Assembly: GCA_030629485.1 (NCBI GenBank)
Contig: DAOVOW010000004.1
Location: forward strand, 1-16,527
Source: a bacterium
Lineage (GTDB): Bacteria > Zixibacteria > MSB-5A5 > GN15 > FEB-12
Direction of reading: 5' to 3'
DNA: 16,527 bases
This document shows, in pieces, positions 1-16,527 of this stretch. Numbering within the stretch: position 1 is the stretch's first letter; each line of letters starts with the position of its first letter. Both the position numbers and the translations under genes were made by a program. The notes beneath the pieces are model-generated. The model was given only the letters and a program-made list of their open reading frames with translations. It had not been told where the DNA came from and searched no databases.

Positions 1-3000
1 AAGGACAAGGAAGGGCGTATCCAGATCACCGATACCAGCACCGGAGACGGTAGCACAGAATATCCTTTCGAGCGTGTCGAGTATACCTACAGCGAAGGGA
101 ATGTCATCGAACAGTTCTACCTTGGCACGGTAACATCGGATCCGGATGGGGTGATCACCATCGACTACACCGCTGACGGCGACCCGAATTCCCATACCAT
201 CGGTTCGGGCATCGAGTTCGCGTATGAGCCGGTGGAGGGCAGCCAGTATGTCTGGGTAGAGGGCCAAGAGAAGACCCAGACCGAGGTCAAGTATTACAAG
301 AAGAATAAATTCAACCTGACCGGCGGTCTTATAGATTGGATTGACGACAACTTGGCAGGGGATGAGAGTTATAAGTGGCGAACTTTTGAGTTTACCGACG
401 AGAAGCCCCTGCTCGAATCCGAGGCAATCATTATCGATCCCGGCACTACTGATGTTGCCTACAGCGTCGAATATAAAACCACGCAGACTGATGCTCCCGA
501 TGTGACGGTAGACGACTGGGAGACCGGTGGTGGCTGGCTGCGAAAGAAGTCATATCATAAGCTGGTGACCACGGTTGAAGGAATCAAGGACTTCTATACC
601 CACACCCTGGAAGCCGACAGGCCCATTGCAATCGATTTTATCGATGGACCGGCCGCGCCATCGGTCACTATTGTCTCGGGGGGCTCGATCGATTTCGGCG
701 AAATCAACGTGCCGGATACGGTGGCATCTTCGGTCAGTATCAACACGACAGGCGCAGGCGCTAATATTCTGCAGGATGTTTCCAGCGGAATATTTGGCAC
801 CAACGACGTGACCATCGATTCTGCTGGTTCGCTGCGGGCGAATATCGAAGGGCTGAAAACTAGCGGTGCTGGTGGCGAAGTGGGGGCGTACAAAGCGGCT
901 GGTGACATCTGGATTGGTTTCTTTGAAACCGAGGCAGGTCAGGTCGGTACCCTGAGTTCCGATCGGAGTGTGGTAGTTGACTATATCTGGTCCACCGACG
1001 GCAATGTATTCGTTTCCGCGCCGGATGGTATTTTTGCCAAGGATGCTAATTCATTCATCATCGGTAATCAGGTAGAGCTGTATGCCAAGGAAGGACAAAT
1101 CGGTACCGTCGACAATCCGATTTTTATCGACAGCGATGTGCATGGTGAAGTCGGCGATGGGGGCATGCTCGCCTGGGCGCAGGGCGATATCCATATTCGT
1201 GAAATGGAAGGCGACCTGTATCTTGCCCAACAGCTCGATCTGGCATCGGGCTTCGATGAGGACAACGCGGAACAGGGTCTGTCCAACCTCCAGTCAACCT
1301 ACGATGAGATCAGGCCGCAGGAGGATGGCGCAAATAATGTTTTTGACGGGTCGATCCACAGTACCACGGGGACCATCAATATCGAGGTCGTCGCGGGTTC
1401 GGTCATTGACGCCATCGAAGAAGGTTTTGTCCCGCTGACGCCGGAAGAAATCGAGGCGCGTAATGTCCGCCTTGGGCTAACCGGCGCCGCGGGTGAAGCC
1501 GCTGCACTTGAAGAACTCAATGCCGACGCCAGAGACAAGACCGAATCCTATCACCGTTACTGGAAGGACATTCGGAACGCCACCAGGGACACCACACCGA
1601 GCGATACGCTCGTGGTCGCTACCATCAACACTGGCACTGACATCCTGACATTCGCGAGCAATCATGGCCTTGAAACCGGCGATGAGGTCATTGCCGGTGG
1701 CAACGTTGAGCTGACCGACAGCGGGCTGCGAGCGAGCGCGGCCTACTATGTTATCAAGGTAAGCGATACGGTAATCAAGCTGGCTGCGACCCGTACGGAC
1801 GCCGCAATTGTGGAGACACCTCTCGACATCCTGTACAATGGCTTGTCGCTTGCTGGGCTGGAGTTGTTGCGTTACGACTATACCGACTATACCGAGGATT
1901 CATTTGCGCCTGACCAGGTACCGTCGTCGATTACCGCCGACTTCACAACTTCCGATACGCCTTCATTGATTTCGACGGACCAAATTGTCGAGTTGGATTC
2001 GGATATTGATAGTGGTAACGAAGGCCTGCTTGGTCAAAAGTATATCTACACGGGTACTGACGACCTCAACACACCGGATCTTGGCGACATCGACTACGTG
2101 TCCGATCCCAACTGGGTGCTGGTCATTGATCCGATATACGGCGGACAACAGGAGGTCGAGAATGCCTACGAGACCGGCGATACCAGCTTCGGCAGCATGT
2201 ATGAATACGACCCTGACTTCGTGTTTACCTACTCGCAGGTGGAAAAAGACGCCTATGTTGCCGCTAACACCTTTAACCTGGAAGCGCTCGAGAACCCGGT
2301 ATCACCGGGCCTGATGAAGTACCTCTATCCCCATGCGGAATTCAGCACCGGCACAGTCATTTCGGACAGCACCGAGTTTGCCAATATCACCGCCGATGAA
2401 GTCAACATCGTTGCCGGCACCAAGACCGACAGTTCCGGTAATGTAATCGTTGGCGAAGAAAGCAGCATCGGCAGCAAGGGCGACGTGATCACCATTAACA
2501 ACCCGGTTGATTTCGAAAATATCCCGGATGAAGGCAAGATCGCCATGGCGAATGCGACACCGGATGACCTGGTGGGCGTCCACTACAAGATCTACCAGTA
2601 CACCGGCAGCTATCAAACTGGGATTGATTTACAGGGTGAAGATTTCAGCGTTGGCCCCTGCCCCTGGACCGAAATAGTTACCAATTATGTGACCGGAACC
2701 GATGCAAGTGATACGGTTACGGAAAACGTTTCGATAGGGGAAACGGTACTGGTGCAACTGGATGCGGAAAGCTACGGCCTGTATCGCGCCACCCAGGCGT
2801 TTAATGGGGATATCGCCAACAAGTATATATACCAGGGCAGCGGCTGGGAACGCCTGACCGACGATGGTGGAACGCGTGCCGAAAATGATTTACTCCACGC
2901 AACCGATAGCGGGCCGGTCAATCTGATATCGGGTGACGTGTACCTCGACAAATTCAATGTTCAGACCCTGACATTGCAGTTGTTCGAGGATATCGACATC

Positions 3001-6000
3001 GAGTCCCAGGACGATAACGCGGTCAACCTGGGGGCAAATGCGGGCGGCGAAGTCATTATTCAGACCACGGATAATCTCAGGATCCATCATGTACTGGCCG
3101 GGGGCGATGTGCGCCTGCAGGCCGGTGGTTCCATCACCGGCGATGGCTCGGTGGCGGGTGATATCGCGAATCCGGCCATTGATATCGCCATCGGTACCCT
3201 GGGTAACCTCATCCTGCTGGCCGATAACTCGATTGGCACCGAACCCAATCCGCTGCGCATCCAGATTGCGCCAACCGGAACATTGTCGTTAAACGTGTCG
3301 GGTCAGCTGTATCTGCATCAGATTTCCGACACAATGCTGGACATCGACTATACGGATACCACCCCGGATACCACGCTGTTTAATCCGGCCGTTCGCGGAT
3401 TCTCGGTGACTCCTGGTGAGGTGGCGCAGTTTGGCTATGTCAATAGTCTGACTAGCATGCACTTGCCTGAACTGATCAAGATCGACGCCGGCACCGTCGG
3501 TATCAATGACCTGACTGTCGAAAATGCCAGTGCTGGTGGCAACCTGCTGATCAATATCGTGGACGAAACAGGGCTATCGGATACCGGCAAGCTGATAATT
3601 GGCAAGATCCAGGCGGGCGACTCGGTCGACTTGCGGGCGCCCGAATCCATCCTGGATTTGTTTGTTGATGCCAATGCACCCATCGTCAATATCCTGACCG
3701 ACGATATGTCTGATCCTGGCGATGTTTACCTCCAGGCGGGCAACGACATCGGCACCATCGACAATTTTATCGACATTGAAGTTTGGGACGGTGAGCTCAA
3801 CGGCCTGGTCGAAAGAAATGCCTTTATCCACAGCGTTCGCGATCTGAATGTCGGCACCGTTACATCCACGAATGGAGACGTGACCCTGGATGTGGATGGC
3901 AATGCCAACATCGGCTATATCTCGGCTACCGCCGGGACTGTCCTGATAGACGCCAAAGACAACATCGTCGATCGTCGGGGAGACGATGGCTGTAACATCC
4001 GAGCCATCAATCTGAACCTGACCTCCCAGTCCGGCGCCATCGGGTCCCTCATCAACAACCTTGACATCGATTCTTCCAACGCCACGGCCGGTTCCGTGGA
4101 TGCCAGCGCACCGAGTTCGATCTTCCTCAGAGAGACCGCAGGCGACATGAGGCTGGGTCTGATCACCTCCGGGACCGATGTGAACCTGGATGCCCCGTAC
4201 GGCGCCATCGTGGATGACGACATAAACGACAGCAATGACATCGACGCTCCGGTGGCCCTGCTGTTCGCTGCCATGGGCATCGGTGAGGCGGGCAACGCCC
4301 TCGAAGCCACCGTCCAGCGTCTGGAGGGCAGCGGCGGTACCGGCGGGATATGGCTCGACAATACAGGCGCTCTGGTCATCGGCGGGATCACTACAACCCT
4401 GGGGCGTTCCACCGTGGGACTCACCGCCAGCGATGATATCGTGGTCCGGGCAATGAGCCCCATGACGGTCAGCGAGGATGTCATATCGCTTGCCGATGTG
4501 GTTCTCACGTCCGTGGACACGTGCGCGGGTGACGACCTCGTTGTGGACATCGTCGACGACGGACTGAACGAGCGCAAAATCAGCGGTGACACCGTAACCC
4601 TGAGGGCAGGCGACGACTTCCACCTGGCCGCCGGAAGCCTCGTGGAGGCGACCTCCCAGATTACCGTGGAAGGTGATTACGGCAACACCGATGCCGGGAT
4701 CGGCACCCACATGACCTTTAACGGCAGCCTCAACGCCCCTGAGATAGATGTCTTCGGCGAGGCCGACGATGACGTGATCCTTTTCGACGCCCAGGGAACC
4801 AACACCCTCACCGGCCACATCCAGGTGTTCGGTAACACGGGTGAAGACCACATTACAGTAAATGAGCTGAACACCAGAACCGCTGAGATGGAACTTGACG
4901 GCCAGGGCGGCACTGATACCTACACGGTGAACATCAGAAGCGGCAGGACCGACTACATCATCAATGTCTGGGACACTGGTGCCAAGGATGACGGCGCCGA
5001 CACTCTCACCATCAACGGCACCGACGAACTCGACCCCAACAACCTGACAGGCGAGGACCTCTTCCTGCTGCGCAAAAACTTTGTCGCTTATCTCAACCCA
5101 AACACCGGTTTCGACGACCTCCACCCCGAGGTGGAGCGTATCAACTACAATGAGAACATTAACGCCCGTCTGACGGTCAACGGTTTTGAAGGCAACGACT
5201 ACTTTGCCAGCGACGACAACAGCTCCATCACCACCCTGGACGGCGGTTCCGGTGACGATCAGTTCCAGATTGGCCAGATTTTCAGAACCGATCGAATTCC
5301 AGATAGTGTCGCATCCGGTGATGAAATTGCAACTACGGAAACAACCCGCGGCTACCTCAGCCAGGGTATCAGCTTCCCGACAATTATTTACGGTGGCACC
5401 GGCCATGATATCTTTACAGTATACAGCAACAAGGCTGAACTGCGTCTCGAAGGTAACGATGGCAATGATACCTTTATCATTCGTGCCTTTGCACTGGAAG
5501 GCAGCGATGATTTCTCAACTAAGGAAACAACCGAAGTCCGCGCCGGCGGAGGTGATGATTACGTCCAATACAACATCAACGCCCCGGTGGATATTGATGG
5601 TGGTAAGGGATTTGACAAGATTGTCGTTATCGGTACAGAGTTCGCAGATGACTTTGCCATCACCGAAGCGGGGATTTACGGCGCCGGTCTCAACATTTCC
5701 TACGAAGGCGTGGAGTTGATCGAAATTGACGGTATGGAAGGTGATGACAACTTCTTTATCCTCTCCACCCGTTCCGACACCGTTACCAAAATAATCGGCG
5801 GCCTCGGCAGTGATACGTTCAATGTAACCGGCGATGTGACCGGAACGGTCATCAGCCAGGAACTTGAGGGCCGGAGCGGCATGATCAACCACGCAGTCAG
5901 CAGTATAACCGATCCTGATTACGACGGCCTGCTGGCACCGGGTATTTCCCTGAATGTGGCGGACCCGGAAACAGTCGGGCAGATTGTCATTGATCAGATC

Positions 6001-9000
6001 GACGGTTCAGTTGTTGTGGGTGAGCATCAAGGAGGAACGCTGTTCACCGATTACTATGATGTCTATCTCTCAGGACCTCCTGCTGAGACTGTCTATGTCA
6101 ACGTTTCTGCGGCACGGCCCATGACAGAAGAGCAAGAACTTGGTGGTGACACCATCCTTGTCTCCACGGATCAACTTACTTACACGCCGGCGACTGTCCT
6201 TACCTTTACCGCCAGCAACTACGATATCCCGCAGCGGATTTACATTAAAGCGGTGGACGATACGCTTGCTGAAGGAGAGCGGCTGGTAATGGTGAGCCAC
6301 AGCTCAGCCAGCGAAGATACCGATTTTGATAAAGTGCCGGTGGTCAATGTCGCGGTGAATGTCCGCGATGACGATCAGGCAGGACTGATCATCAACGAAA
6401 GCGATGACAAGACCCTGGTCCTCGAAGGTGCTTTACCGCACGGCATCAATGACAGCTATACTGTACAGCTCACCAAGGCTCCTGCTGATGGTAAAACTGT
6501 AACAGTAACTCTGGAGCATGATGATCAGGTATCACTTTCAAGTGCTGATAGTCGATTCGATGCAGGAGTCATCACCTTTACGCATACAAACTGGAATGAT
6601 ACCGTTACTATTGATGTCGCAGCGGTAGATGATGGGATTGCTGAAAACACTGATTTTTCCAGGATAACCCATACGGTAACCAGCAGCGATCCAGGTTTTG
6701 TCGTGACCAGCACACCGGCTGTTGAGGTCAAGGTCCTGGATAATGAAACACCCGGTGTTCTTGTGACTCAAACTGACGGTTCAACACTGGTTATTGCCGA
6801 TGGCATCGTTGGTGCAGGTACCGATACATATGGTATCAGGCTGACAAGTGCACCGCTGGGAGATGTCACCATCGATATGCTTACCGATGGCCAAACGGTG
6901 ACTACACCTGATTCTGTGACCTTCACCACTGGTAACTGGTGGATTCCTGTCACCATCACCGTTGATGAAGATCCTTCCTATGTGCCGGACACAAGTGAAC
7001 AGCCTGAAAAGGCATTCCCGCTTGCAGATCACTTGGTGAACAAGATCCGCGGACCACTCCTCATCGAAGGCTATGTTGAGGAAGGGGCTGACCGGTCACT
7101 TGCTGAGCCAATCATGCTGCCAACCGAGACCGACCTCCTCGAACCCATCGGCAATGTTGTTGCTTTCAGCGGCACAGGAGAAGGTGGTACTATTGACACG
7201 ATGACAGTGGAAACAGCCGACCTTCAGGCATATGTTGATGAGCCGGATGGACCGACGTCTATCAGCGAACTGGAGGGCTACTCGGTAGAGATCAGCTCAG
7301 GACCTGGTGATAAGCGCTTCTGGCTAATTACCGGACTAAGCAAGGGCAATGATGATACGGTACTGACGCTTCAAAATCCGACTGTCCTTGAAGCCGATCG
7401 AGATCTACCGACTGCGGCCAGCAAATATGTCATTACGTCCATGTCTCCCAACTTCTTTGTCACCGAAAGTGCTCAGGTCGATACGCTTAATGTGTTTAAC
7501 GATTCGAGCACATTCAATGATATAGGCGTCCTCGGCTATAATAATGATATTACCACGCCGGGATATACGTTGACCGGCCTCGGCATGTGTGATGGATTAA
7601 CAGCCGACCTTGGTGACGATGATCCGGGTAACGACATCACCTTCTCCGGCGGCATCACCTATGATGACGTGGAGATCCTTGATATCCTTCTCGGTAAGGG
7701 CCATGACACCCTTACCATTGAAGCGACATTGACAACCGACGCTAATCACGGCGGCATAACTACGGTGCATGGCGGCGGCGGCGATGACACCATCACCATT
7801 ACCGGTGGAGGCGGTCCCGATTCACCGCTAGTGGTGTACGGTGATACTTCCCAGGACGGCAGTCGGTATGCCGGCGAATCAGGTAAGATCCTGGAAGATG
7901 TCAATGGCATGATTTATGAACAGTTTCCAACAGAACCGGGTGAAGGCGATCCAAATTATAGAATCACCGGTATACCTTTAGGGACTCCTTTTGACTCACC
8001 AGGCGACGATACCATCAACGCCTCGGCAATTTCTGAGACCATTACTATCTATGGCGGTGGAGGTAATGATACGATTACCGGCAGCCAGGCTGGTGATCAT
8101 ATTGCCGGCGGTTCGGGAAATGACATTATCTATGGCCAGGCCGGCGTGGATCACATCTACGGCGACTCCGGGTTCAATGTCAATCTGGTGACACGCGTGG
8201 TGGACGTGGTAACTGCTGATTCAAGCAGCCATCACTCACGCGATACGCTGACGGCCGGACAGGACGAAATCCATGGCGAAGGTCATGACGATATTATCTT
8301 CGGTGACCTGGGCGTGGTAGAGCAGAGCACACTCAAGATCCTGTCTACGAACAACGTCACGGAGATCCGGAGTGAAAACCTCGCCAACGGCGACGCGGAC
8401 ACGATTTCCGGCGAAGCCGGTGCAGATATCATCCTCGGCGGCAGTGCCGGTGATACCATTTATGGTGATGATGCATCAGCATCAGCGGGTATGGACGACG
8501 GCGAGGACATTCTTCTTGGTGACAACGGGACTATTACTTTTTACGTAGACGTTCCTGGCAGACTGAACCTTGCCAACAGTGGTGTTGTAAAGGTTGAGAC
8601 CACCGACACCGTGGAAATCACCGGCGGTGCGGACACCATCGAGGGCAATGCAGGAATGGATGTGATCTTTGGTGGTGTCAACGGTGACACGTTGTATGGT
8701 GATGCTGAGAATGTGAGTGTTTACGATGGCGACGATGTGATCCTCGGTGACAACGGTGAACTCGATTTCGCTTACGGCGACACTGATCTGACCACCCTAG
8801 ATCTGATTCGTTCGCTGCCGTACTCCGCTTCAGATTCGAGCGTGCTTGGCGGTGTGGACATCATCTCAGGCAATGCTGGCAATGACGTGGTTATAGGTGG
8901 CACCTACGGCGATACCTTGTACGGTGACGATGCGACTGCTTCCGACGGCGCAGCGGACGGCGAGGACATCCTGATTGGTGACAACGGTGATATCTTCCTG

Positions 9001-12000
9001 TCCGGGAACGTTGCGGGCAGGCTGTATGCCCTTGGCAGCGCCATCAACAAGATCGAGACCACGGACTACGAAGAGTTAAGTGGCGGCGCGGACACCATTC
9101 ACGGCAACGCGGCGGGCGATGTGATTCTCGGCGGTGTCAACGGTGACACCTTGTACGGCGATGCTGCGAGCGTGGGTGATAACGACAGTGACGATGTGAT
9201 TCTGGGTGACAATGGTCTCCTTGACTTCGAGAACAATGACATTGATGCCACCACCCTGGATCTAATCCGGTCGCTTCCCTACTCCTCATCAGATTCGAAC
9301 GTGCTGGGCGGTGTGGACACCATCTCGGGTGATGCCGGAAATGACGTGGTTATGGGAGGCACCTTCGGGGATTTCTTGTACGGCGACGATGCGACTGCCT
9401 CTGACGGTGCGGCCGACGGTGAAGATATCCTGATCGGCGACAACGCTGATATCACTTTATCTGATAGCGAATATGGTCAGCTCATTCTCAACACGGCTGT
9501 GCATGTAATCGACACCACGGATTCGACAGAGACAACCGGCGGTGCAGACACCATCTCCGGCAACGCGGCAGACGACATCATTGTCGGTGGTGTCGGTGGC
9601 GATATCATTTATGGGGATGCCGCTGTTGAAGGCTTTTATGACGCTCTTGCATCACCGAAAGTTAATGACATCAATGACATTATCCTCGGCGACAATGGTG
9701 TATTCAATTTCAATACAGGTGATAATGACTACACGACCATCGACCTGATTGAGACCACCGATACCGGTCTGGACGGGCTCGTTTTAGGCGGGGCAGACAC
9801 CATATCCGGCAATGACGGTGACGATTACATTCTTGGTGGCACGGATGGTGACACCATATCCGGAAACGCGGATGATGATATTATCCTTGGCGACTTCGGA
9901 AAGATTACGCTTGAACGTGGAATCGCCATGGAAATCGAAACAATCGCCCGTACGAAAGGCGGCAGCGATACCATCTACGGCAACGAGGACGAAGATATGC
10001 TCGTTGGCGGCGCAGACGGAGACTTCATTGACGGCGATGAGGCCGACGACCTGATCTTCGGTGACAACGTGAAACTGGACCGTTGGGACGGTCTGAGCGA
10101 CTTCACCAACCCGCGATTCAGAACCCTGAGTGGGACCATGATCTATGGCGAGACGCCGGGCCTGAATGATGGCGACCCGCTCGTTGATTCTACTGACCGC
10201 CACATTCCCGGTCAGACCGGAACGCCGGTGTGGGGAAACTGGGATATCACCTTCCTGAATCACTCCGCAACTGATGAGACCGCAGGTCTCAACAACTTCG
10301 GTAACGACTACATTGCCGGCGGCCCAGACGATGACACCATATTCGGTCAGTTGGGCGACGACACGATTCAGGGTGACGGTAGTATCGATGGCAAGGTCGA
10401 TGACGAGACCCCGGTCGGTGCGATGCGTGATGGCGACAACCTCCTCGTTGTCTCCCCCTCCTTTGAGGCCGAAACAGACGGTGATGACTACATCGAGGGT
10501 AACGGCGGCAACGATGTCATCTTCGGCAACCTGGGTCAGGATGATATCATCGGCGGGAACTCGAATCTGTTCAGCCTGATTACGCCTGACTTGAGGCCCG
10601 ATGGTATCGACTTGATCTTTGGTGGGGCCGGAACCGATATCGACCGCAATGATCTGGGCGACGGTTTGCATACCACAGATTCAGACACCATTCTTGGCGA
10701 CAATGGAAATATCTTCCGGCTGGTTGCGCAGACGGCTGATGGTACGGATTATCTGGCCTTTAACTATGATAATTACGGCGAAGATCGTACGATCATACCG
10801 CGGGCCGCCGAACTTCTCGATTACACCCCAGGCGGGCCTGACTACGAGCCCACCGCTTCCCAGGCTGCTCTCGACATCGGTGCTGCCGATGAAATCCACG
10901 GCGAGTCCGGGGACGATTTCATCTACGGTATGAAGGGTGATGATGTCATCTTCGGCGAGGGCCAGGACGACGACATCATCGGCGGCTACGGGAACGATTG
11001 GATTTCCGGCGGCACCGGGCAGGACGGCGTGCTGGGCGACGACGGCCGGATTTACACCAGCCGCAACAGCGCTGAAGCCGACGAGGATGGTTATATAGAG
11101 CCCCTGTACGGCATCGAGGCGCTGCTGCCGACCGACCCGAGCAAGACCATCGACGGCAATGTGCTCAACGAGGCCATCTACACCCCGGGTAAGATTCAGC
11201 AGTCGACCATCAATGTCGAAGGTAAATTGAAGAAGAGCGTTAACCTGACTCCGTTCAAACTGGGCGATCCCGAAGCTTTTGATTATGATGGTGAATTACA
11301 TGATCCCGAACACGCGGATGACATCATTTACGGCGGCTGGGGCGATGACTTCCTGCATGGGGGTGACGGTGACGACGCCATCTCCGGTGCCGAGGCACTG
11401 GAAATGTACTATGAAGCGCCGTTTAACCCCGGCAATATCCTCAAGTTCGGTGATTACCGGGCAGGGGAGTTCGGGGCCTATGACGAGTACGATCCCTGGT
11501 CCAAGGTCTACTGGGATCCGAAAACCGGCGAGTTCGTGACCGGCGGCGACGTGGAATTTCTGCTTAACTTTAACCATATGGAAGGACCGACCGCCGGAAT
11601 CCTTGACGGCTTGGAAGCATTTACCGACGGCAACGACGTCATCTTCGGCGATGTGGGCAATGACTGGCTGGTGGGCGGTACCGGTAAGGATCACCTCTAC
11701 GGCGGGTACGGGTTCGATCTGATGAACGTGGACGACGATCAGACAACCAATTACGATGCCAACGATGTTCCCGACACCCATCCCTCCTACGAAGATATCG
11801 CTTACGGCGGGGCCGGTCGGGATGTGCTCATCGCCAACACGGGCGGTGACCGCTTGATCGACTGGGCGGGCGAGTTCAACAGTTACATCGTGCCCTTTGC
11901 GCCCTTTGGCATGGCCACGGTCAGCCGCACCCTGCAGCCGCAGTTGATGGAATACCTCTACGCGCTTTCGGCCAGCGACGGGGCCGATCCGACCCGCGCT

Positions 12001-14010
12001 GCCGATACCGGTGCGGCCGTGGAACGCAACGGCGAACCCGAGGGCGAGCTCGGCCTGGTAAAACAGAAAGACCTCGACTGGCATGACCAAACCGGGGCCC
12101 CGGATGACCCGCAGCCGGGCAACATACCGGGCGGCAAGCGAGACGTGCTGCGTTCCTCCACCTTTAACACCGGCACAATGGAAGGAACGTTTGTGGACAG
12201 TGGTGTCTTCAGCGTGGAGAGCGGCGCTTTGAAGGTCTCGGCCGAATCCATCGGCGGTGATGCGGTGGCGGTTTACCACGTGGACGAGATGCTGCCTCAA
12301 TACTTTGAGATTCAGGCCTCGATCACCATGGAGAAACCGACCGGCGGCTGGAAGGCCAATTCCTATATCATCTTTGACTATTATAACGAATATGACTTCA
12401 AGTTTGCCGGAATCGACGCTTCGCGCGACAAGATTCAGCTTGGACACAGGACGGCCGAAGGGTGGATCATCGATGCCGAGACGCCGGCCAAAATCAAACC
12501 TGGCATTTATTACAACGTGCTGGTAGCGGTAAACGGTACCAATGTCACCGTCGTGGTAGATGGAACCGAACACTTCGGCCATACCTACGAGGCACGAGTG
12601 GATGCGGACGGCTGGGTCTACGGTCTCAATTCCGGTATGGTGGGACTGGGTTCAGACAATTCGCGGGGGGTTTACGATAATATCGCCGTTCAGATTCTGC
12701 CGCCGGAAATCACCCTCGAAGCGACGGAAGAATTTCCCGATACAGATCCAGATGTTAATTTAGAGATTGCCTCAGGCTCGTGGCAGCCTGGCGGGGACAA
12801 CCTGCGTTATGAAGGAACACCGCTTAACGGCGATGATATGGCCATCAGTCTGGTCAACCTGGGAATCGATCAAGGACTGCATATTGATTCCGTGTTAGAG
12901 CTCGAAACTACGCTCAACACTAAGGCGACGGGCGGTTTGATCTTCGATTATTACGGGGAGGAAGATTTTAAATTTGCCGCCATCGACGCGTCTACCGACA
13001 GCCTCATCATTGGCCACCATACCAGCAAAGCCGGTTGGGTCTACGATGCCTCCTTTGACCTTTACATCGATATCGAAGACGGTATCGACTATACCTTGAA
13101 TCTTTCCCTGAAGGGATCAAGCGTGACCGCTTCCGTCAAAGCGGTCGATGCCGAAAACTGGCGGGGCATGGCGGGTTACGTGTATAACGCCGTTACTGTG
13201 GACGGGGACTTCGGACTGCTGACCAAGGATGGCGTGAGCTCTTTTGACGATGTGACAGTCAAGACCGACGATCCGGCCTTCAACGAGAGCGATAACCTGA
13301 TGGCCTCTGTGGCACCTCAAGATCTTTTCAGTTCAGAAAGCACCTTGAGCTACGCCGAATTGGCCCCAATTATTGATGAGGCGATCGAACGCTGGACCGA
13401 CTCACTCCTTCTTGATGACACCGCCTTGGCGTTGCTGGATGAGGTAACCTTCGAGATTGCCGACTTTGATGGGCTTGTCCTCGGAGAGACGGCCGGTACA
13501 ACGGTACTGATCGATGCTGACGCGGCCGGCTATGGCTGGTTTGTCGATTCCACGCCATATGACGACACCGAGTTCATACTGCAGAATGGAGACGGGGAAC
13601 TGGTGGCCACACCCTCAAGCACGGCTTACGGAGATATGGACCTGCTCACCGTGGTCATGCATGAACTGGGCCACGTGATAGGGCTTGAACATACTGAGCA
13701 GGAAGGGCTGATGGATGCAACATTAGATTCAGGCGTCCGCTACCTCATTGAGGACACCGCCGACGACCAAATTGATGAAAGCTCCACGGGCCTGGTGGCG
13801 ATGGATTCAACAACGGAAACAAGCGCTGAAGAGGATTCCCTCGCAGCGGCTACCGACCAGAGTCCATGGCTTGCGCAGTTCCTGCTAAACGGTGCGGAGG
13901 ATGACGACACAAATCCCAACGCTGATATCGCGGTGGTGTTACTCGGCGAAGATCTCAAGGACGACAATAGTAGTAACGGCAACGGGAGGGGAAAAACAAG
14001 CAAAAAGTAA
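1..14010 (+). CDS. Giant multidomain RTX exoprotein with C-terminal metzincin-like protease domain (5' partial)
   Basis: The frame is open from the first base to the TAA at 14008-14010, so at least 4,669 residues are present and the N-terminus lies upstream. The first GTG in frame (151) is not a credible start because coding continues before it. Modules in order: beta-helix-like repeats (about nt 700-4670), a first Asp/Gly-rich cluster (4750-5835), three Calx-beta-like domains (5980-6975), RTX nonapeptide arrays (7771-8170, 8386-10060, 10300-11868), two lectin-like domains (12160-13275) and a zinc-protease-like domain (13321-13760). The RTX motifs (GGxGxDxxx type) bind calcium in secreted proteins of Gram-negative bacteria, usually type I secretion substrates. 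The protein is very rich in Asp, Gly and Thr and has few Cys, as expected for a surface or secreted protein. The organisation resembles the giant proteins named LEPR-XLL in public annotation, but that N-terminal motif is outside the window. Likely roles are adhesion, matrix or predation; substrate unknown. Confidence 0.93.
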   Translation, partial: KDKEGRIQITDTSTGDGSTEYPFERVEYTYSEGNVIEQFYLGTVTSDPDGVITIDYTADGDPNSHTIGSGIEFAYEPVEGSQYVWVEGQEKTQTEVKYYKKNKFNLTGGLIDWIDDNLAGDESYKWRTFEFTDEKPLLESEAIIIDPGTTDVAYSVEYKTTQTDAPDVTVDDWETGGGWLRKKSYHKLVTTVEGIKDFYTHTLEADRPIAIDFIDGPAAPSVTIVSGGSIDFGEINVPDTVASSVSINTTGAGANILQDVSSGIFGTNDVTIDSAGSLRANIEGLKTSGAGGEVGAYKAAGDIWIGFFETEAGQVGTLSSDRSVVVDYIWSTDGNVFVSAPDGIFAKDANSFIIGNQVELYAKEGQIGTVDNPIFIDSDVHGEVGDGGMLAWAQGDIHIREMEGDLYLAQQLDLASGFDEDNAEQGLSNLQSTYDEIRPQEDGANNVFDGSIHSTTGTINIEVVAGSVIDAIEEGFVPLTPEEIEARNVRLGLTGAAGEAAALEELNADARDKTESYHRYWKDIRNATRDTTPSDTLVVATINTGTDILTFASNHGLETGDEVIAGGNVELTDSGLRASAAYYVIKVSDTVIKLAATRTDAAIVETPLDILYNGLSLAGLELLRYDYTDYTEDSFAPDQVPSSITADFTTSDTPSLISTDQIVELDSDIDSGNEGLLGQKYIYTGTDDLNTPDLGDIDYVSDPNWVLVIDPIYGGQQEVENAYETGDTSFGSMYEYDPDFVFTYSQVEKDAYVAANTFNLEALENPVSPGLMKYLYPHAEFSTGTVISDSTEFANITADEVNIVAGTKTDSSGNVIVGEESSIGSKGDVITINNPVDFENIPDEGKIAMANATPDDLVGVHYKIYQYTGSYQTGIDLQGEDFSVGPCPWTEIVTNYVTGTDASDTVTENVSIGETVLVQLDAESYGLYRATQAFNGDIANKYIYQGSGWERLTDDGGTRAENDLLHATDSGPVNLISGDVYLDKFNVQTLTLQLFEDIDIESQDDNAVNLGANAGGEVIIQTTDNLRIHHVLAGGDVRLQAGGSITGDGSVAGDIANPAIDIAIGTLGNLILLADNSIGTEPNPLRIQIAPTGTLSLNVSGQLYLHQISDTMLDIDYTDTTPDTTLFNPAVRGFSVTPGEVAQFGYVNSLTSMHLPELIKIDAGTVGINDLTVENASAGGNLLINIVDETGLSDTGKLIIGKIQAGDSVDLRAPESILDLFVDANAPIVNILTDDMSDPGDVYLQAGNDIGTIDNFIDIEVWDGELNGLVERNAFIHSVRDLNVGTVTSTNGDVTLDVDGNANIGYISATAGTVLIDAKDNIVDRRGDDGCNIRAINLNLTSQSGAIGSLINNLDIDSSNATAGSVDASAPSSIFLRETAGDMRLGLITSGTDVNLDAPYGAIVDDDINDSNDIDAPVALLFAAMGIGEAGNALEATVQRLEGSGGTGGIWLDNTGALVIGGITTTLGRSTVGLTASDDIVVRAMSPMTVSEDVISLADVVLTSVDTCAGDDLVVDIVDDGLNERKISGDTVTLRAGDDFHLAAGSLVEATSQITVEGDYGNTDAGIGTHMTFNGSLNAPEIDVFGEADDDVILFDAQGTNTLTGHIQVFGNTGEDHITVNELNTRTAEMELDGQGGTDTYTVNIRSGRTDYIINVWDTGAKDDGADTLTINGTDELDPNNLTGEDLFLLRKNFVAYLNPNTGFDDLHPEVERINYNENINARLTVNGFEGNDYFASDDNSSITTLDGGSGDDQFQIGQIFRTDRIPDSVASGDEIATTETTRGYLSQGISFPTIIYGGTGHDIFTVYSNKAELRLEGNDGNDTFIIRAFALEGSDDFSTKETTEVRAGGGDDYVQYNINAPVDIDGGKGFDKIVVIGTEFADDFAITEAGIYGAGLNISYEGVELIEIDGMEGDDNFFILSTRSDTVTKIIGGLGSDTFNVTGDVTGTVISQELEGRSGMINHAVSSITDPDYDGLLAPGISLNVADPETVGQIVIDQIDGSVVVGEHQGGTLFTDYYDVYLSGPPAETVYVNVSAARPMTEEQELGGDTILVSTDQLTYTPATVLTFTASNYDIPQRIYIKAVDDTLAEGERLVMVSHSSASEDTDFDKVPVVNVAVNVRDDDQAGLIINESDDKTLVLEGALPHGINDSYTVQLTKAPADGKTVTVTLEHDDQVSLSSADSRFDAGVITFTHTNWNDTVTIDVAAVDDGIAENTDFSRITHTVTSSDPGFVVTSTPAVEVKVLDNETPGVLVTQTDGSTLVIADGIVGAGTDTYGIRLTSAPLGDVTIDMLTDGQTVTTPDSVTFTTGNWWIPVTITVDEDPSYVPDTSEQPEKAFPLADHLVNKIRGPLLIEGYVEEGADRSLAEPIMLPTETDLLEPIGNVVAFSGTGEGGTIDTMTVETADLQAYVDEPDGPTSISELEGYSVEISSGPGDKRFWLITGLSKGNDDTVLTLQNPTVLEADRDLPTAASKYVITSMSPNFFVTESAQVDTLNVFNDSSTFNDIGVLGYNNDITTPGYTLTGLGMCDGLTADLGDDDPGNDITFSGGITYDDVEILDILLGKGHDTLTIEATLTTDANHGGITTVHGGGGDDTITITGGGGPDSPLVVYGDTSQDGSRYAGESGKILEDVNGMIYEQFPTEPGEGDPNYRITGIPLGTPFDSPGDDTINASAISETITIYGGGGNDTITGSQAGDHIAGGSGNDIIYGQAGVDHIYGDSGFNVNLVTRVVDVVTADSSSHHSRDTLTAGQDEIHGEGHDDIIFGDLGVVEQSTLKILSTNNVTEIRSENLANGDADTISGEAGADIILGGSAGDTIYGDDASASAGMDDGEDILLGDNGTITFYVDVPGRLNLANSGVVKVETTDTVEITGGADTIEGNAGMDVIFGGVNGDTLYGDAENVSVYDGDDVILGDNGELDFAYGDTDLTTLDLIRSLPYSASDSSVLGGVDIISGNAGNDVVIGGTYGDTLYGDDATASDGAADGEDILIGDNGDIFLSGNVAGRLYALGSAINKIETTDYEELSGGADTIHGNAAGDVILGGVNGDTLYGDAASVGDNDSDDVILGDNGLLDFENNDIDATTLDLIRSLPYSSSDSNVLGGVDTISGDAGNDVVMGGTFGDFLYGDDATASDGAADGEDILIGDNADITLSDSEYGQLILNTAVHVIDTTDSTETTGGADTISGNAADDIIVGGVGGDIIYGDAAVEGFYDALASPKVNDINDIILGDNGVFNFNTGDNDYTTIDLIETTDTGLDGLVLGGADTISGNDGDDYILGGTDGDTISGNADDDIILGDFGKITLERGIAMEIETIARTKGGSDTIYGNEDEDMLVGGADGDFIDGDEADDLIFGDNVKLDRWDGLSDFTNPRFRTLSGTMIYGETPGLNDGDPLVDSTDRHIPGQTGTPVWGNWDITFLNHSATDETAGLNNFGNDYIAGGPDDDTIFGQLGDDTIQGDGSIDGKVDDETPVGAMRDGDNLLVVSPSFEAETDGDDYIEGNGGNDVIFGNLGQDDIIGGNSNLFSLITPDLRPDGIDLIFGGAGTDIDRNDLGDGLHTTDSDTILGDNGNIFRLVAQTADGTDYLAFNYDNYGEDRTIIPRAAELLDYTPGGPDYEPTASQAALDIGAADEIHGESGDDFIYGMKGDDVIFGEGQDDDIIGGYGNDWISGGTGQDGVLGDDGRIYTSRNSAEADEDGYIEPLYGIEALLPTDPSKTIDGNVLNEAIYTPGKIQQSTINVEGKLKKSVNLTPFKLGDPEAFDYDGELHDPEHADDIIYGGWGDDFLHGGDGDDAISGAEALEMYYEAPFNPGNILKFGDYRAGEFGAYDEYDPWSKVYWDPKTGEFVTGGDVEFLLNFNHMEGPTAGILDGLEAFTDGNDVIFGDVGNDWLVGGTGKDHLYGGYGFDLMNVDDDQTTNYDANDVPDTHPSYEDIAYGGAGRDVLIANTGGDRLIDWAGEFNSYIVPFAPFGMATVSRTLQPQLMEYLYALSASDGADPTRAADTGAAVERNGEPEGELGLVKQKDLDWHDQTGAPDDPQPGNIPGGKRDVLRSSTFNTGTMEGTFVDSGVFSVESGALKVSAESIGGDAVAVYHVDEMLPQYFEIQASITMEKPTGGWKANSYIIFDYYNEYDFKFAGIDASRDKIQLGHRTAEGWIIDAETPAKIKPGIYYNVLVAVNGTNVTVVVDGTEHFGHTYEARVDADGWVYGLNSGMVGLGSDNSRGVYDNIAVQILPPEITLEATEEFPDTDPDVNLEIASGSWQPGGDNLRYEGTPLNGDDMAISLVNLGIDQGLHIDSVLELETTLNTKATGGLIFDYYGEEDFKFAAIDASTDSLIIGHHTSKAGWVYDASFDLYIDIEDGIDYTLNLSLKGSSVTASVKAVDAENWRGMAGYVYNAVTVDGDFGLLTKDGVSSFDDVTVKTDDPAFNESDNLMASVAPQDLFSSESTLSYAELAPIIDEAIERWTDSLLLDDTALALLDEVTFEIADFDGLVLGETAGTTVLIDADAAGYGWFVDSTPYDDTEFILQNGDGELVATPSSTAYGDMDLLTVVMHELGHVIGLEHTEQEGLMDATLDSGVRYLIEDTADDQIDESSTGLVAMDSTTETSAEEDSLAAATDQSPWLAQFLLNGAEDDDTNPNADIAVVLLGEDLKDDNSSNGNGRGKTSKK
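700..4670 (+). repeat. Beta-helix-like repeat region of the giant protein
   Basis: This part of the protein consists of degenerate short beta-strand repeats. A recurrent motif IG(T/S/E)xxNxLxI is followed by strands such as SIFLRETAGDMRLG and GDVTLDVDGNANIG. Clear copies begin near 1099, 3232, 3748, 4039 and 4279. The pattern resembles the right-handed beta-helices of filamentous haemagglutinin-like adhesins. The region is interrupted by an insert at 1603-1830 carrying the motif HGLETGDEV followed by YYVIKV and IKLAATRTDA, and by three KYxYxG...W motifs at 2038-2127, 2578-2679 and 2821-2856. Both insert types recur in other giant RTX proteins as I remember them. Fold assignment is inferred from pattern only. 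Confidence 0.6.
4750..5835 (+). repeat. First Asp/Gly-rich RTX-like cluster
   Basis: This stretch holds spaced, degenerate calcium-binding-type motifs: VFGEADDDVILFDA, VFGNTGEDHITV, LDGGSGDDQFQIG, IYGGTGHDIFTV, LEGNDGNDTFII, VRAGGGDDYVQY, IDGMEGDDNFFI and IGGLGSDTFNV. They are separated by 30-60 residues instead of being packed in tandem nonapeptides, so this looks like an RTX-related array of larger beta modules. Calcium binding is expected from the family, not shown. Confidence 0.6.
5980..6975 (+). repeat. Three tandem Calx-beta-like domains
   Basis: Three copies of an immunoglobulin-like module of about 120 residues follow one another, starting near 5980, 6379 and 6751; the third is shorter. 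Shared signatures are the entry motif D(D/N)xxxG(L/V)(I/L)(I/V)xxxD, seen in DDDQAGLIINESDD and DNETPGVLVTQTDG, then a YxVxLTxAP strand (YTVQLTKAP, YGIRLTSAP) and a closing FTxxNWxxxVTI strand (FTHTNWNDTVTI, FTTGNWWIPVTI). Such domains are common spacers in large adhesins and often bind calcium through the Asp-rich linkers. Confidence 0.6.
7771..8170 (+). repeat. RTX nonapeptide array, proximal block
   Basis: The encoded protein has repeats such as HGGGGDDTITI, YGGGGNDTITG, AGGSGNDIIYG and QAGVDHIYGDSG. These fit the GGxGxDxUx consensus of haemolysin-type calcium-binding repeats. An interrupting segment at about 7850-7980 lacks repeats. The block leads, after a short non-repeat stretch, into the superrepeats that begin at 8386. 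Confidence 0.8.
8386..9957 (+). repeat. Alternating two-type RTX superrepeat (B0-A1-B1-A2-B2-A3-B3)
   Basis: Two related RTX half-units alternate. Type A starts GGADTI, contains GGVNGDTLYGDA and ILGDNG, and in A1 and A2 ends TTLDLIRSLPYS. Type B starts GGVD(I/T)ISG, contains YGDDATASDGAADGEDIL and ends near (I/V)xTTD. Boundaries: B0 8386, A1 8623, B1 8848, A2 9082, B2 9307, A3 9538, B3 9787, with the next array at 9958. The A-to-A period is 459 bp and then 456 bp. A1/B1 and A2/B2 are very similar as protein but differ at many synonymous positions. The third pair is more diverged and B3 is shorter, consistent with decay away from the duplicated core. Each half-unit holds several calcium-binding GGxxGDxxY motifs. 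Confidence 0.85.
10300..11868 (+). repeat. RTX nonapeptide arrays, distal block
   Basis: Clusters of RTX motifs alternate with unrelated inserts. Examples are GNDYIAGGPDDDTIFG, GNGGNDVIFGNLGQDDIIGG, ESGDDFIYGMKGDDVIFG, YGGWGDDFLHGGDGDDAISG, GNDVIFGDVGNDWLVGG and YGGAGRDVLIANTGGDRLID. The inserts (for example about 10,720-10,870, 11,050-11,290 and 11,410-11,610) carry acidic or aromatic-rich sequence without repeats. The last motif precedes a linker rich in Pro, Gly and Asp that leads to the lectin-like domains. Confidence 0.8.
12160..13275 (+). other. Two tandem lectin-like (LamG/concanavalin-type) domains
   Basis: Two copies of a module of roughly 180 residues lie back to back. The matched core reads IIFDYYNEYDFKFAGIDASRD in copy 1 and LIFDYYGEEDFKFAAIDASTD in copy 2. 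Each is followed by a (I/L)xxGHxT motif, GW(I/V)xDA, a YxxxLxVxxxxVTxxV strand, and a closing (S/V)xxxDxxxVxx strand. This order matches concanavalin-like jelly-roll domains, often used to bind carbohydrate or protein ligands. The fold is inferred from pattern; the ligand is unknown. Confidence 0.55.
13321..13760 (+). other. C-terminal metzincin-like zinc metalloprotease domain
   Basis: The domain starts with the helix SYAELAPIIDEAIERW and continues through DGLVLGETAGTTVLIDADAAG, GYGWFVDSTPYDD and DLLTVVM. The motif HELGHVIGLEH at 13660-13692 fits HExxHxxGxxH exactly: three zinc-ligand His and the catalytic Glu. A candidate Met-turn follows, the Met of GLMDATL at 13711. All key residues of the motif are present, so activity is plausible. 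Similar domains end other giant RTX proteins, where they may act in self-processing or substrate cleavage. After the domain comes an acidic tail with SPWLAQFLLN and then a basic end, GRGKTSKK. Confidence 0.75.
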
Positions 14011-14029
14011 AAGAAGAGGGTTAATGATG

Positions 14030-14084
14030 AAATGGCCGACTCTACTGTGATGGTCAGTGGCTGCCACCGCGGGGTCGGCCATTT
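14030..14084 (+). terminator. Probable intrinsic terminator after the giant RTX gene
   Basis: An 11-bp perfect inverted repeat, AAATGGCCGAC (14030-14040) and GTCGGCCATTT (14074-14084), encloses a smaller inner hairpin, GTGG-CTG-CCAC (14057-14067). T-rich sequence (TTTTGGTTT) follows the right arm. It begins 20 bp after the stop codon of the giant gene. The A run before and T run after would allow it to work in either direction. The T tract is interrupted, so termination may be partial. Confidence 0.6.
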
Positions 14085-14095
14085 TGGTTTACCCT

Positions 14096-14108
14096 AAAAA
14101 AGGGGGGG
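14096..14108 (+). promoter_or_regulatory. A6-G7 tract in ribosome-binding position, abutting the ATG at 14110
   Basis: Six A are followed by seven G, and only one T separates the G run from the start codon. A purine-rich sequence here can pair weakly with the anti-Shine-Dalgarno, but no AGGAGG core exists and the spacing is unusually short. The ATG is nevertheless favoured because the first residues (KSxKKAEAxES) match those of the paralogue that starts at 15628 with a good ribosome-binding site. Confidence 0.4.
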
Positions 14109-14109
14109 T

Positions 14110-15285
14110 ATGGCGACATATAAGAGCAATAAAAAAGCTGAAGCCGCTGAGAGTACCACCCAGGCGGGTGATCAAACAAGAATCATCCGGGGTGACGCCA
14201 ACATGCGTACTGTGTATGCCAACGTGGCTCAAGTGAAGGCTACGCGGGAGGAGATCATGCTCCTATTTGGTACAAGCCAGGCACGAGGCCAAAATGAGAC
14301 CCTGGTACAGCTCAAAGAGCGAATCCTTCTGGGCCATGTCGCAGCCAAACGACTATCCATTCTGCTCAACAATGCTATCAAGGAATATGAGTCCAAGTTC
14401 GGCCCTCTGGACATGGAAGCCCCGCCGCCGACCGGGTCCGACCCGAAACCATCACTCCGCCTGCCCTATTTCAAATCGAGAGTAACAGCCGAAAAAGTCG
14501 GCTTGCTTTTTCAACTCTTAGAAAACCTCGACCTGAGGGTCAGTTTTGAACGTTCTTTTAAGCTATTAGAAAAAACCCTGCTTGGAAGCCGTTTTTTGTT
14601 GGGCATCAACAAAAATACGATCCGGCCGAACCCTCATGAAAAAATACTGGATATCTGTATACAAATGGATATGCCAAAAAATATTCTGGATACTTTTCAG
14701 ATTAACCTGCCGGAAGCAAACATGGTGCTTTTCGGTTTTGAGGAAAACGAAACGACTTGCATCGTTAAAGCCTATCTGGAGTTCGGAAGCAGATACGATA
14801 AAGCCATCAAAAACAAGCCGGATAAGCCTGATCCATACCTGTCGCATTTGGGATTTAAGTGGGATGCTGCGGATAATACCAGAAGCGCTTTAACAAGATA
14901 CACCTGCTTTCCAGCATTCACCGTCAAAGACATGCTGGAAAGATTATCAAACAGTTTTTACAGGCACAATGGCAGAAACCCCTTTGAAATCATAAAAGGT
15001 ATTCTCGATTTGGCTTCAAGCAAGGTTGGCCACGACAAGTTTCTCTATCTAGATGTTAGCGAGGGAAATAATCCGAGATCATCCTTCGATATCAACATGT
15101 ACGGGGCGAACCTTCGGATGAAAGAACTGCACCCCTTCTTGTTGGAAATGTGCCGGCACTATTCGATCCCTGATGAGCAATTTCACAACCTGTATGAGCT
15201 GGCGGAAACCCAGATATTTGGACACCTCGCAGGTGGTATGGACAGAAAAGGAAGAGATTTTCTCACCATATACTTTGGAGGGTAG
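14110..15285 (+). CDS. DUF3467 domain fused to a putative ABBA-type (LynF/TruF/PatF-like) prenyltransferase domain
   Basis: The 391-residue protein has two parts. Residues about 22-105 fit DUF3467: NMRTVYANVAQV, REEIMLLFG, VQLKERILL, AAKRLSILLNNAIKEYE and FGPL. A Pro-rich linker (EAPPPTGSDPKPS) leads to residues 116-391. Landmarks there are IRPNPHEKILDICIQMDMPKN (170-190), VLFGFEENETT (206-216), FLYLDVSEGNNPRSSFDINMY (321-341) and a final FGHLAGGMDRKGRDFLTIYF (370-389). The order and spacing of these, a xxLxxxIxxxxxP segment, then an (I/F)GF segment, then a C-terminal strand ending in aromatics, recall the cyanobactin peptide prenyltransferases of the LynF/TruF/PatF family, which attach isoprenoids to Tyr, Trp or Ser/Thr. 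I have not aligned it; this is pattern memory. No signal peptide or membrane segment is visible, so it is likely cytoplasmic. It follows a probable terminator, so it may have its own transcription. The DUF3467 half looks richer in GC than the C-terminal half. Confidence 0.85.
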   Translation: MATYKSNKKAEAAESTTQAGDQTRIIRGDANMRTVYANVAQVKATREEIMLLFGTSQARGQNETLVQLKERILLGHVAAKRLSILLNNAIKEYESKFGPLDMEAPPPTGSDPKPSLRLPYFKSRVTAEKVGLLFQLLENLDLRVSFERSFKLLEKTLLGSRFLLGINKNTIRPNPHEKILDICIQMDMPKNILDTFQINLPEANMVLFGFEENETTCIVKAYLEFGSRYDKAIKNKPDKPDPYLSHLGFKWDAADNTRSALTRYTCFPAFTVKDMLERLSNSFYRHNGRNPFEIIKGILDLASSKVGHDKFLYLDVSEGNNPRSSFDINMYGANLRMKELHPFLLEMCRHYSIPDEQFHNLYELAETQIFGHLAGGMDRKGRDFLTIYFGG

Positions 15286-15439
15286 GGGCAGCTTCAGTTA
15301 TATCGTGCTCGTCGGAACACAGCAGGTAATTTTTTGTTGACATCGCTGATCATCCGCTGCTCCAAGATTTATTGGCAAAAAACGTTTTAATGACCGCTTA
15401 AAGGCATTTTATGCAAAAAATACAAACACATTTTAGGCA

Positions 15440-15470: not shown

Positions 15471-15474
15471 AATA

Positions 15475-15486: not shown

Positions 15487-15532
15487 ATGTGTTCCAACGA
15501 TTAATATTGTATATTCAATGGGTTATAACATT

Positions 15533-15627: not shown

Positions 15628-15981
15628 ATGACAACTGAAAAGAGTAGTAAAAAAGCTGAAGCAGTTGAGAGTGAGAGTACCGCCCGGGCGGGTAATCAAA
15701 CAAGAATCGTATGGGACGACTCGAATATGCGCAGTATTTATGCCAATGTATCCAACGTGGCCAGTGGGCGAGAAGAAGTCGTCCTCTTATTTGGAATGAA
15801 CCAGTCATGGCATGCCGGCCAGAAGGAGGTGAAGGTCCAGCTCATGGATCGAATCATCTTAAGCCCGTTTGCGGCCAAACGGCTGTCCATTTTGCTAAAC
15901 AACGTCCTTCAGGAATATGAAAAACGATATGGTGCGCTGGAGATCGAAGTCACCCGGCCACCAGGATCTTCCATACAATAA
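15628..15981 (+). CDS. Stand-alone DUF3467 domain protein
   Basis: The 117-residue protein consists almost entirely of one DUF3467 domain: NMRSIYANVSNV, REEVVLLFG, VQLMDRIILS, AAKRLSILLNNVLQEYEKRYG. It is a close paralogue of the N-terminal part of the protein encoded at 14110; both begin with KSxKKAEAxES, share AGxQTRI and run together to a PPxGS segment, where this protein ends. Several short DNA stretches are identical between the two genes, which points to a rather recent duplication. DUF3467 has no established biochemical role known to me. The protein is small, soluble and probably cytoplasmic. Its gene has a strong ribosome-binding site and a stop 69 bp before the next start, so it is likely cotranscribed with the GAF-adaptor gene. 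Confidence 0.9.
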   Translation: MTTEKSSKKAEAVESESTARAGNQTRIVWDDSNMRSIYANVSNVASGREEVVLLFGMNQSWHAGQKEVKVQLMDRIILSPFAAKRLSILLNNVLQEYEKRYGALEIEVTRPPGSSIQ

Positions 15982-16050: not shown

Positions 16051-16527
16051 ATGGAGCGATTTCCCCCAGGCCGTGATGATAAACCGCGAACACTTCATGC
16101 GGTAGGCGGATCAGAAGATAGTCGTGGTTCTGATCCGGACCGTATCTTTTGGCGGCAGTTTGCCGAAGCCACTACCCCCGAGGCGTTCTGCCAGAGCTGG
16201 CTGCCGCTTCAATGCCGCATGCTTAAAAGGGTCCGTTGCGCCATTGTCCTTTTAGGGACTCCGGACCGCGGTCCCTTTACCCCTGTGGCGGTCTGGCCGG
16301 ACGCCAAGCTTAGCATGCATCACCTCACCGGAGCCGCAGAGCGTGCCCTCAAGGAGCGCCGCGGCCTTCTTGTTGAAAAGGACCACGCCCCCGCCTCTAA
16401 AAATCATTTTCCCGAGAATTTTCACATCGCCTATCCGATCGAGATTGCAGGTAAAATCCACGGTACCGTTGTATTAGGAGTTGACGAGCACGACCGCACT
16501 GCGGTTCAAAATATTATGCGGCAGCTC
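16051..16527 (+). CDS. GAF-domain protein, likely N-terminus of a HlyD-type export adaptor (3' partial)
   Basis: The frame runs from ATG 16051 to the window end (159 codons) without a stop. An in-frame TTG at 16039 is an alternative start; a TGA at 16036 closes the frame before it. No good ribosome-binding site is visible for either. After a polar stretch of about 30 residues, the protein reads RIFWRQFAEATTPEAFCQSW, then CAIVLLGTPDRGPFTPVAVWP, then AAERALKERRGLLV, AYPIEIAGKIHGTVVLGVDE. This is the pattern of a small GAF-like sensor domain. Similar N-termini, as I remember them, precede biotinyl-lipoyl/HlyD domains in membrane-fusion proteins annotated as periplasmic adaptors near giant RTX genes. 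The adaptor part would lie beyond the window, so the HlyD assignment is inference. Confidence 0.75.
   Translation, partial: MERFPPGRDDKPRTLHAVGGSEDSRGSDPDRIFWRQFAEATTPEAFCQSWLPLQCRMLKRVRCAIVLLGTPDRGPFTPVAVWPDAKLSMHHLTGAAERALKERRGLLVEKDHAPASKNHFPENFHIAYPIEIAGKIHGTVVLGVDEHDRTAVQNIMRQL
16107..16137 (+). repeat. 10-bp inverted repeat inside the 5' coding region of the GAF gene
   Basis: CGGATCAGAA (16107-16116) and TTCTGATCCG (16128-16137) are perfect reverse complements separated by 11 bases. The sequence lies in the poorly conserved leader of the protein, just before the conserved RIFWRQF segment. It could form an mRNA hairpin shortly after the start codon or be a protein-binding site. No T run follows, so it is not a terminator. 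Confidence 0.55.

Follow-up and report, generated by a model that had tools for sequence, protein, structure and literature searches.

A DUF3467 domain fused to a predicted ABBA prenyltransferase barrel, recurrent beside a giant-protein export module

What might a protein do that joins a DUF3467 domain to a second domain resembling peptide prenyltransferases, encoded just behind a giant repeat-protein gene? The question is raised by a gene of a Zixibacteria bacterium (assembly GCA_030629485.1), found in a stretch of 16,527 nucleotides of contig DAOVOW010000004.1 that is hereafter called the window. We tentatively favour, at rather less than an even chance, a prenyltransferase docked by DUF3467 to giant-protein export and acting on the cargo or on another polypeptide of the export module. 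The predicted fold, its invariant polar residues, the kinship of the DUF3467 domains and the recurrent genomic context were computed directly. The gene, which on reading the sequence has a run of G just before its ATG, and the parts of its product are as follows:

14110..15285, + strand: DUF3467-ABBA fusion gene (open reading frame (ORF) with an ATG start, 391 aa; Pfam, homologues, predicted structure)
14146..14412, + strand: DUF3467 domain, residues 13-101, of the secretion-module type by PF11950 and tree position
14413..14454, + strand: predicted flexible linker, residues 102-115 (predicted local distance difference test, pLDDT, below 50 at residues 101-115)
14455..15282, + strand: predicted ABBA (alpha-beta-beta-alpha) prenyltransferase-fold domain, residues 116-391, with five beta-hairpins and intervening helices (AlphaFold2 model, Foldseek, VIA)
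14548..14550, + strand: E147 of ExSxK, candidate catalytic glutamate by position (compare TleC Glu106), invariant in 173/173 non-gapped copies
14590..14592, + strand: R161, candidate diphosphate-binding residue at E+14 (TleC Glu106/Arg119 being E+13), in 174/174 non-gapped copies
14857..14859, + strand: K250 of GFKW, candidate diphosphate-binding residue, in 175/175 copies
15076..15078, + strand: R323 of NPRSSFDINxY, candidate diphosphate-binding residue, in 175/175 copies

An earlier note, made from the letters of this DNA, had taken the N-terminal third for DUF3467 and had seen landmarks of peptide prenyltransferases in the rest. Both observations were borne out: residues 13-101 match PF11950 (E 9.8e-18, 64.4 bits, above the gathering cut-off of 25), and the landmarks ERSFK, RFLLG, the GF segment near residue 209 and the terminal GHLAGGxDRxGRDFLTxYF are real and conserved. 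Searched alone, the C-terminal part of the fusion has no match in Pfam or NCBIfam. The family is nonetheless real and conserved: a search of a 5.8-billion database with residues 110-391 gave 310 proteins at E <= 0.001, of which the best 120, as listed, were used here. Together with 11 locus sequences they made 131, one of which was left out of the copy count for want of a full domain; 86/130 proteins carry one copy and 44/130 carry two. Four layouts were found: DUF3467 with one barrel, as in the window; DUF3467 with two; two barrels without a Pfam DUF3467 label; and one barrel alone, as at the loci L007, L008 and L010.

The fold, which the earlier note regarded as its weak point, came out of the AlphaFold2 model as ABBA topology; from residue 121 to 390 the pLDDT averages 87-96 per block of 10 residues, apart from one block at 78. 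When the model was compared with the PDB, the 50 matches listed by Foldseek and the 50 listed by VIA, whose comparison of the whole model covers residues 110-391, were all named prenyltransferases or dimethylallyltryptophan synthases. Supported by this model, residues 116-391 belong to the ABBA prenyltransferase fold. Moreover, direct reading of the translation reveals no (N/D)DxxD motif in residues 116-391, as the ABBA superfamily leads one to expect; its enzymes lack that motif according to the consulted part of PMC7253389.

Among 175 domain copies (an alignment that includes near-duplicates, e.g. window/P0003 and L003/P0022), E147, S149, R161, Y222, K250, W251, R323, Y331 and Y388 are invariant in the non-gapped rows, and this is true of single-copy proteins and of each copy in the tandem ones. 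H372 and Y264 have one exception each, and the position of K220 is K or R in the rows examined. The barrel of TleC is lined by catalytic Glu106, by phosphate-binding Arg119, Lys187, Arg248 and Arg378 and by a shield of Tyr252, Tyr317 and Tyr382, as given in the consulted part of PMC4786772. When the hairpins are taken in order, these active-site residues have plausible equivalents in E147/R161, K220/Y222, K250/Y264 and R323. The same conservation bears on a different reading, in which the barrel has lost catalysis and serves the exporter as an adaptor or chaperone that binds peptides or isoprenoids. A binding role would suit the tandem copies and the fusion to an export-module domain, but E147, R161, K250, R323, Y222 and Y388 do not vary among non-gapped rows in either tandem copy, and we consider such an adaptor improbable.

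The likeness to LynF, TruF and PatF on which the earlier note had leaned holds for the fold and the conserved landmarks, but not for family membership, and kinship to LynF is weak by sequence. Judged by the curated models, the fusion domain is not a member of that family. Indeed, the window protein matches neither TIGR04445 nor PF19156; TIGR04445 gave E 0.0013 in 1/54 homologues and 12.6 bits in P0001, where the cut-off is 140, and the 12 families to which at least one of the 54 has a match at E <= 1 do not include PF19156. Alignment of the ABBA-domain profile with 59 LynF-family proteins by hhalign was weak and collinear (E 0.0073), pairing ERSFK...RF with ECSCK...RF; a reversed LynF profile used as control gave E 0.3 and a probability of 0.2%. 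Furthermore, the cyanobacterium Anabaenopsis elenkinii carries the standalone relative L008 and, at a separate place, a true LynF-family gene (L025, E 1.2e-74, over the cut-off), and the two families therefore coexist as distinct things.

We then turn to the DUF3467 part, which the earlier note had imagined as a targeting module with a neighbouring protein as substrate, an idea that the domain tree and the recurrent module and giant context have strengthened. DUF3467 also occurs as a housekeeping gene, and PF11950 is present in 88/98 genomes of the window's class. In a tree of 65 DUF3467 sequences over 106 columns (30 housekeeping, 26 fused, 9 from the module), the housekeeping sequences are split off by a 100/100 branch. 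Of the 31 housekeeping loci fetched, 30 entered the tree (L059 had no sequence); L060 and L086 are one gene, and 14 database proteins were hand-picked. By best identity, 25/26 fused sequences are closer to a module DUF3467 than to any housekeeping DUF3467, and L002 is tied. By this placement, the fused DUF3467 is of the secretion-module type, not the housekeeping type. The inner order of the fused and module rows is unsure because of the 106 columns, many open forks and long branches, and the tree neither shows nor excludes one origin of the fusion. The usual neighbours of housekeeping DUF3467 (n=30) are other genes; within L050-L079, a gene that is presumably sugar-kinase-like by its sequence lies nearby at 29/30 loci, and a presumably GH57-like gene at 24/30.

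Around the fusion gene, the window holds:

1..14010, + strand: giant repeat-protein gene, 3' part, open at the contig start, candidate cargo (4669 codons visible)
15628..15981, + strand: DUF3467-only gene, 117 aa (PF11950 E 7.4e-23; tblastn and neighbour table)
16051..16527, + strand: GAF-HlyD-like membrane-fusion gene, 5' part, cut by the contig end (29% over 128 aa, E 1e-11, to the GAF-HlyD protein of L005)

The DUF3467-only protein, 56% identical to the fused DUF3467, occupies the DUF3467 slot of the module; its best phmmer match in the PDB has E 0.57, and the GAF-HlyD-like fragment has no match in Pfam. In 7/8 places where the upstream side is visible (window, L002, L004, L080, L081, L082 and L107), a DUF3467-only gene precedes GAF-HlyD in the same orientation, and no further recognised gene separates the two. 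The exception is L005, with a divergent DUF3467-ABBA gene at that position. This count leaves out L084, a contig from the genome of the window on which a weak M50-like match is followed by one to GAF-HlyD that is also weak (25%, E 2e-7) and DUF3467 has no match.

Plasmids provide a set independent of the genome loci. Eight records matched, all via the DUF3467 part only, and the seven annotated ones were counted, leaving out the unannotated H3. On 6/7 (Thalassospira, Pontibrevibacter, Mesorhizobium, Terrarubrum, Rhizobium johnstonii and Methylosinus) DUF3467 directly follows a large or giant gene, annotated as LEPR-XLL, Ig-like or LamG and 12-32 kb long in five of the six; in Terrarubrum an 829-codon Ig-like gene stands behind a 16-kb gene and before DUF3467. 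An HlyD/RND adaptor comes right after DUF3467 in 5/6 and one gene later in Terrarubrum, and PqqD-family, DEAD/DEAH and TolC genes lie downstream in two records each. In the seventh, from Octadecabacter, the arrangement is dispersed: genes for TolC, a site-2 protease, HlyD and a calcium-binding protein lie within 12 kb. DUF3467-only proteins (window 15628-15981; L108-L114) thus appear to be an unrecognised component of the SecA_DEAD/GAF-HlyD/M50 giant-protein export module, also carried on alphaproteobacterial plasmids. A reading of the fusion as a mobile-element gene was set aside: it has no phage match, and the 8 plasmid matches cover the DUF3467 part only.

A DUF3467-ABBA gene is carried by 11 loci (window, L002, L003, L004, L005, L006, L009, L011, L105, L106 and L107). 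L012 (a 43-residue match), L001 and L013 (the window itself) and L094-L104 (overlaps or fragments) were not counted, nor was a second DUF3467-ABBA copy of L005 at the contig end (14256-15175), split over two overlapping ORFs. At 9/11 loci, all except L011 and L105, module genes (GAF-HlyD, PqqD/M50-HlyD, SecA-like, HlyD) or a giant repeat-protein gene stand in the visible stretch; G139, the genome that holds L011, has the module on a separate contig, L082. Complete sets of SecA_DEAD, GAF-HlyD, M50 and HlyD genes accompany the fused gene in L004, L009/L080 and L107, and the window shows the giant, DUF3467 and a partial GAF-HlyD before the contig ends. The short SecA-like ATPase (665 aa; L009 7990-9987, with L004 7057-9054 79% identical) scores 328.9 bits with Pfam SecA_DEAD and stays under the cut-offs of the NCBIfam full-length SecA models. 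The M50 protein is found at E <= 1e-8 in 8/12 ABBA-family genomes, a set that includes G142 with just a fragment of the family, and weakly in the window's genome.

The candidate cargo recurs as well. The window giant carries RTX repeats (HemolysinCabind E 1.2e-19) and is 55% identical over 1551 aa to the giant adjoining the fusion in L003. A matrixin-like HELGHVIGLEH zinc-protease segment lies near its C-terminus (window 13627-13728; Peptidase_M10 E 2.8e-5), and a similar HEMGHVIG segment is present in the L003 giant. The C-terminus is visible in six giants; a tail of the GWxV...RxFxKW type, at most a candidate recognition or modification site, was found by pattern in three giants adjoining the module, loosely by eye in L002, and not in the window and L003 giants:

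L004, 1-2601: giant with GWxV...RxFxKW tail
L080, 3559-8001, - strand: giant with GWxV...RxFxKW tail
L107, 3-1562: giant with GWxV...RxFxKW tail

LEPR-XLL N-termini, which occur on many giant proteins, were found in 7/12 ABBA-family genomes against 0/14 controls, and were unmatched in G132, G136, G139, G142 and the window's genome. Between the giant and fusion genes of the window lies a strong inverted repeat (14029-14085); folding of 14020-14110 finds a hairpin (z -3.3 against shuffles) that is absent from the list of a terminator scan of the window. The repeat is possibly a terminator, and the fusion gene may therefore have its own transcription. An Rfam search of the window gave zero matches.

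At 8/11 loci (not the window, L105 or L107) a radical S-adenosylmethionine (SAM) gene and a gene that we call u290 adjoin the fused gene or lie in the same gene run, and an O-methyltransferase is also present in 7/11 (L002, L003, L004, L005, L006, L009 and L106); these domain calls come from representatives in L005 and L009. The unannotated u290 family comprises 290-aa proteins with 1982 homologues (L005 12320-13195; orthologues in L002, L003, L004, L006, L009, L011 and L106). In its predicted model it forms an ABBA barrel whose nearest Foldseek matches are FamD1/AmbP1/AmbP3, and u290 would accordingly be a second ABBA prenyltransferase-barrel family on the evidence of that model; hhalign gave nothing useful (E 0.095 to the ABBA profile, 0.17 to LynF). 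This cassette suggests a serious rival to the cargo reading, in which the substrate is a small aromatic molecule and the radical-SAM enzyme, u290 and the O-methyltransferase together make a metabolite, prenylated and methylated, that is exported via, or anchors, the neighbouring HlyD system. The fusion to DUF3467 and the position in or beside a protein exporter would then need explaining. Furthermore, no polyketide, nonribosomal peptide or shikimate-type scaffold gene was found among the family-searched neighbours, which make up a minority of the locus ORFs. The cassette is also lacking in the window as far as visible, and in L107, where the fused gene comes right after a giant-DUF3467-DUF3467-GAF-HlyD-M50-SecA-HlyD run and no radical-SAM, u290 or O-methyltransferase gene occurs in 19.9 kb. 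The tie to the exporter therefore does not run solely through the cassette. We consider the small-molecule substrate somewhat less likely than modification of the cargo.

The M50 protein in turn points to another rival, a classical enzyme of ribosomally synthesised and post-translationally modified peptides (RiPPs); its short precursor would have escaped notice, and the leader would be bound by the PqqD-like part of the M50 protein. In L005 the M50 protein matches a daptide metalloprotease model (E 4.6e-46, 157.7 bits, cut-off 300) and also, weakly and under the cut-off, PqqD (E 0.0011, 19.7 bits against 23.4). MppC, a lanthipeptide ABBA enzyme, is leader-dependent (PMC12715784, consulted in part). 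Yet no precursor was recognised, short ORFs being examined just in the window gap 15285-15628, and several cassette genes overlap or nearly touch (L003), which leaves little space for one. A classical RiPP enzyme seems to us quite improbable.

Several points weigh against a cargo-modifying prenyltransferase docked to export. PDB searches by sequence (phmmer and profile searches) returned only chance-like matches and nothing meaningful, the fold being settled by the predicted model, and the Foldseek TM-scores are modest (0.29-0.54 over the 50 matches listed, either normalisation). LynF models stay far below cut-off for the fusion and its homologues, and the hhalign probability to LynF is just 5.3%. 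Distribution is sporadic, with the ABBA family in 1/132 genomes of the window's phylum and 6/395 of the phylum of G137, and at 11 loci in a pattern-based scan of a genome collection. The standalone homologues L007 (5.2 kb), L008 and L010 have no exporter genes in view, L010 having a giant-like ORF nearby. Neither module nor cassette is seen in the 9.8 kb of L105, which of the relatives with context is the nearest (54%); less than 0.8 kb is visible upstream of its ORF. The window's genome, 83% complete and with its contig ending within GAF-HlyD, has no LEPR-XLL match, no u290 match and just weak M50-protein matches. Finally, the adjoining methyltransferase is of the PF00891 type, usual for small-molecule substrates.

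From the results above we infer catalysis, the prenyl donor, docking and the cargo as substrate, and the export-docked prenyltransferase could work as follows. The protein would be a soluble ABBA-barrel prenyltransferase whose DUF3467 part duplicates one small component of a module dedicated to exporting giant proteins, made up of giant cargo, DUF3467, GAF-HlyD, PqqD/M50-HlyD, SecA-like ATPase and HlyD. DUF3467 probably tethers the enzyme to the cargo or to the exporter on its inner-membrane side. Either ahead of export or in its course, the barrel would transfer an isoprenyl group from dimethylallyl diphosphate or geranyl diphosphate to side chains in the giant protein or in a different module polypeptide. 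In most relatives seen, the radical-SAM enzyme, the second ABBA-fold enzyme and the O-methyltransferase may work alongside.

A broader claim, possible and somewhat doubtful, is a system that prenylates giant RTX- or LEPR-XLL-type proteins post-translationally, by export-docked ABBA enzymes (often a tandem fusion plus the second ABBA family) at a SecA-powered, type-I-like exporter. The earlier note knew of no described architecture of this kind, and the titles and abstract openings of the open-licence literature searched gave no report of a DUF3467-ABBA fusion or of such a system; DUF3467 surfaced there in one study, on chlorhexidine and P. gingivalis. If true, bacteria would have a novel type of protein lipidation, and prenylation would reach proteins of very large size. 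The SecA_DEAD module would then gain both a cargo and a chemistry, and DUF3467 its first functional context. The two large families without curated models (310 and 1982 matches) are new enzyme material.

To our knowledge, the known ABBA enzymes act on small molecules or short peptides. With LynF/TruF/PatF enzymes (PagF, LimF, KgpF, PatF; TIGR04445, PF19156) the fusion domain shares the ABBA fold, a length of ~280 aa, the ExSxK...RF start of the barrel and the character of a small soluble enzyme. It differs by falling under the family cut-offs, by about 10-15% identity in structural alignments, and by DUF3467 fusion and tandem copies. Cyanobactin clusters hold a precursor and PatA/PatG-type proteases; neither was recognised near our loci, whose neighbours are annotated in part. 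Indole prenyltransferases of the dimethylallyltryptophan synthase type (CymD, CdpNPT, TleC) have longer chains of about 340-440 aa, no DUF3467, and free Trp, cyclic dipeptides or indolactam as substrates. MppC is likewise an ABBA enzyme that needs a part of its substrate, the leader, distant from the modified site, but this substrate is a short lanthipeptide, and DUF3467 goes unmentioned in the consulted part of the report (PMC12715784). Finally, the secondary SecA_DEAD locus of Kamneva et al. 2015 (PMC4452313) also brings together GAF-HlyD, peptidase M50 with HlyD, SecA_DEAD and HlyD genes. In the consulted parts of that paper the authors related the locus to type I secretion and called its broader role completely unknown; in a term search, prenyl, methyltransferase and radical SAM were absent from the main text, where the DUF passages deal with DUF1501 and DUF4062. 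Unlike that account, as far as consulted, the present analysis ties DUF3467, giant cargo and ABBA genes to the SecA_DEAD locus.
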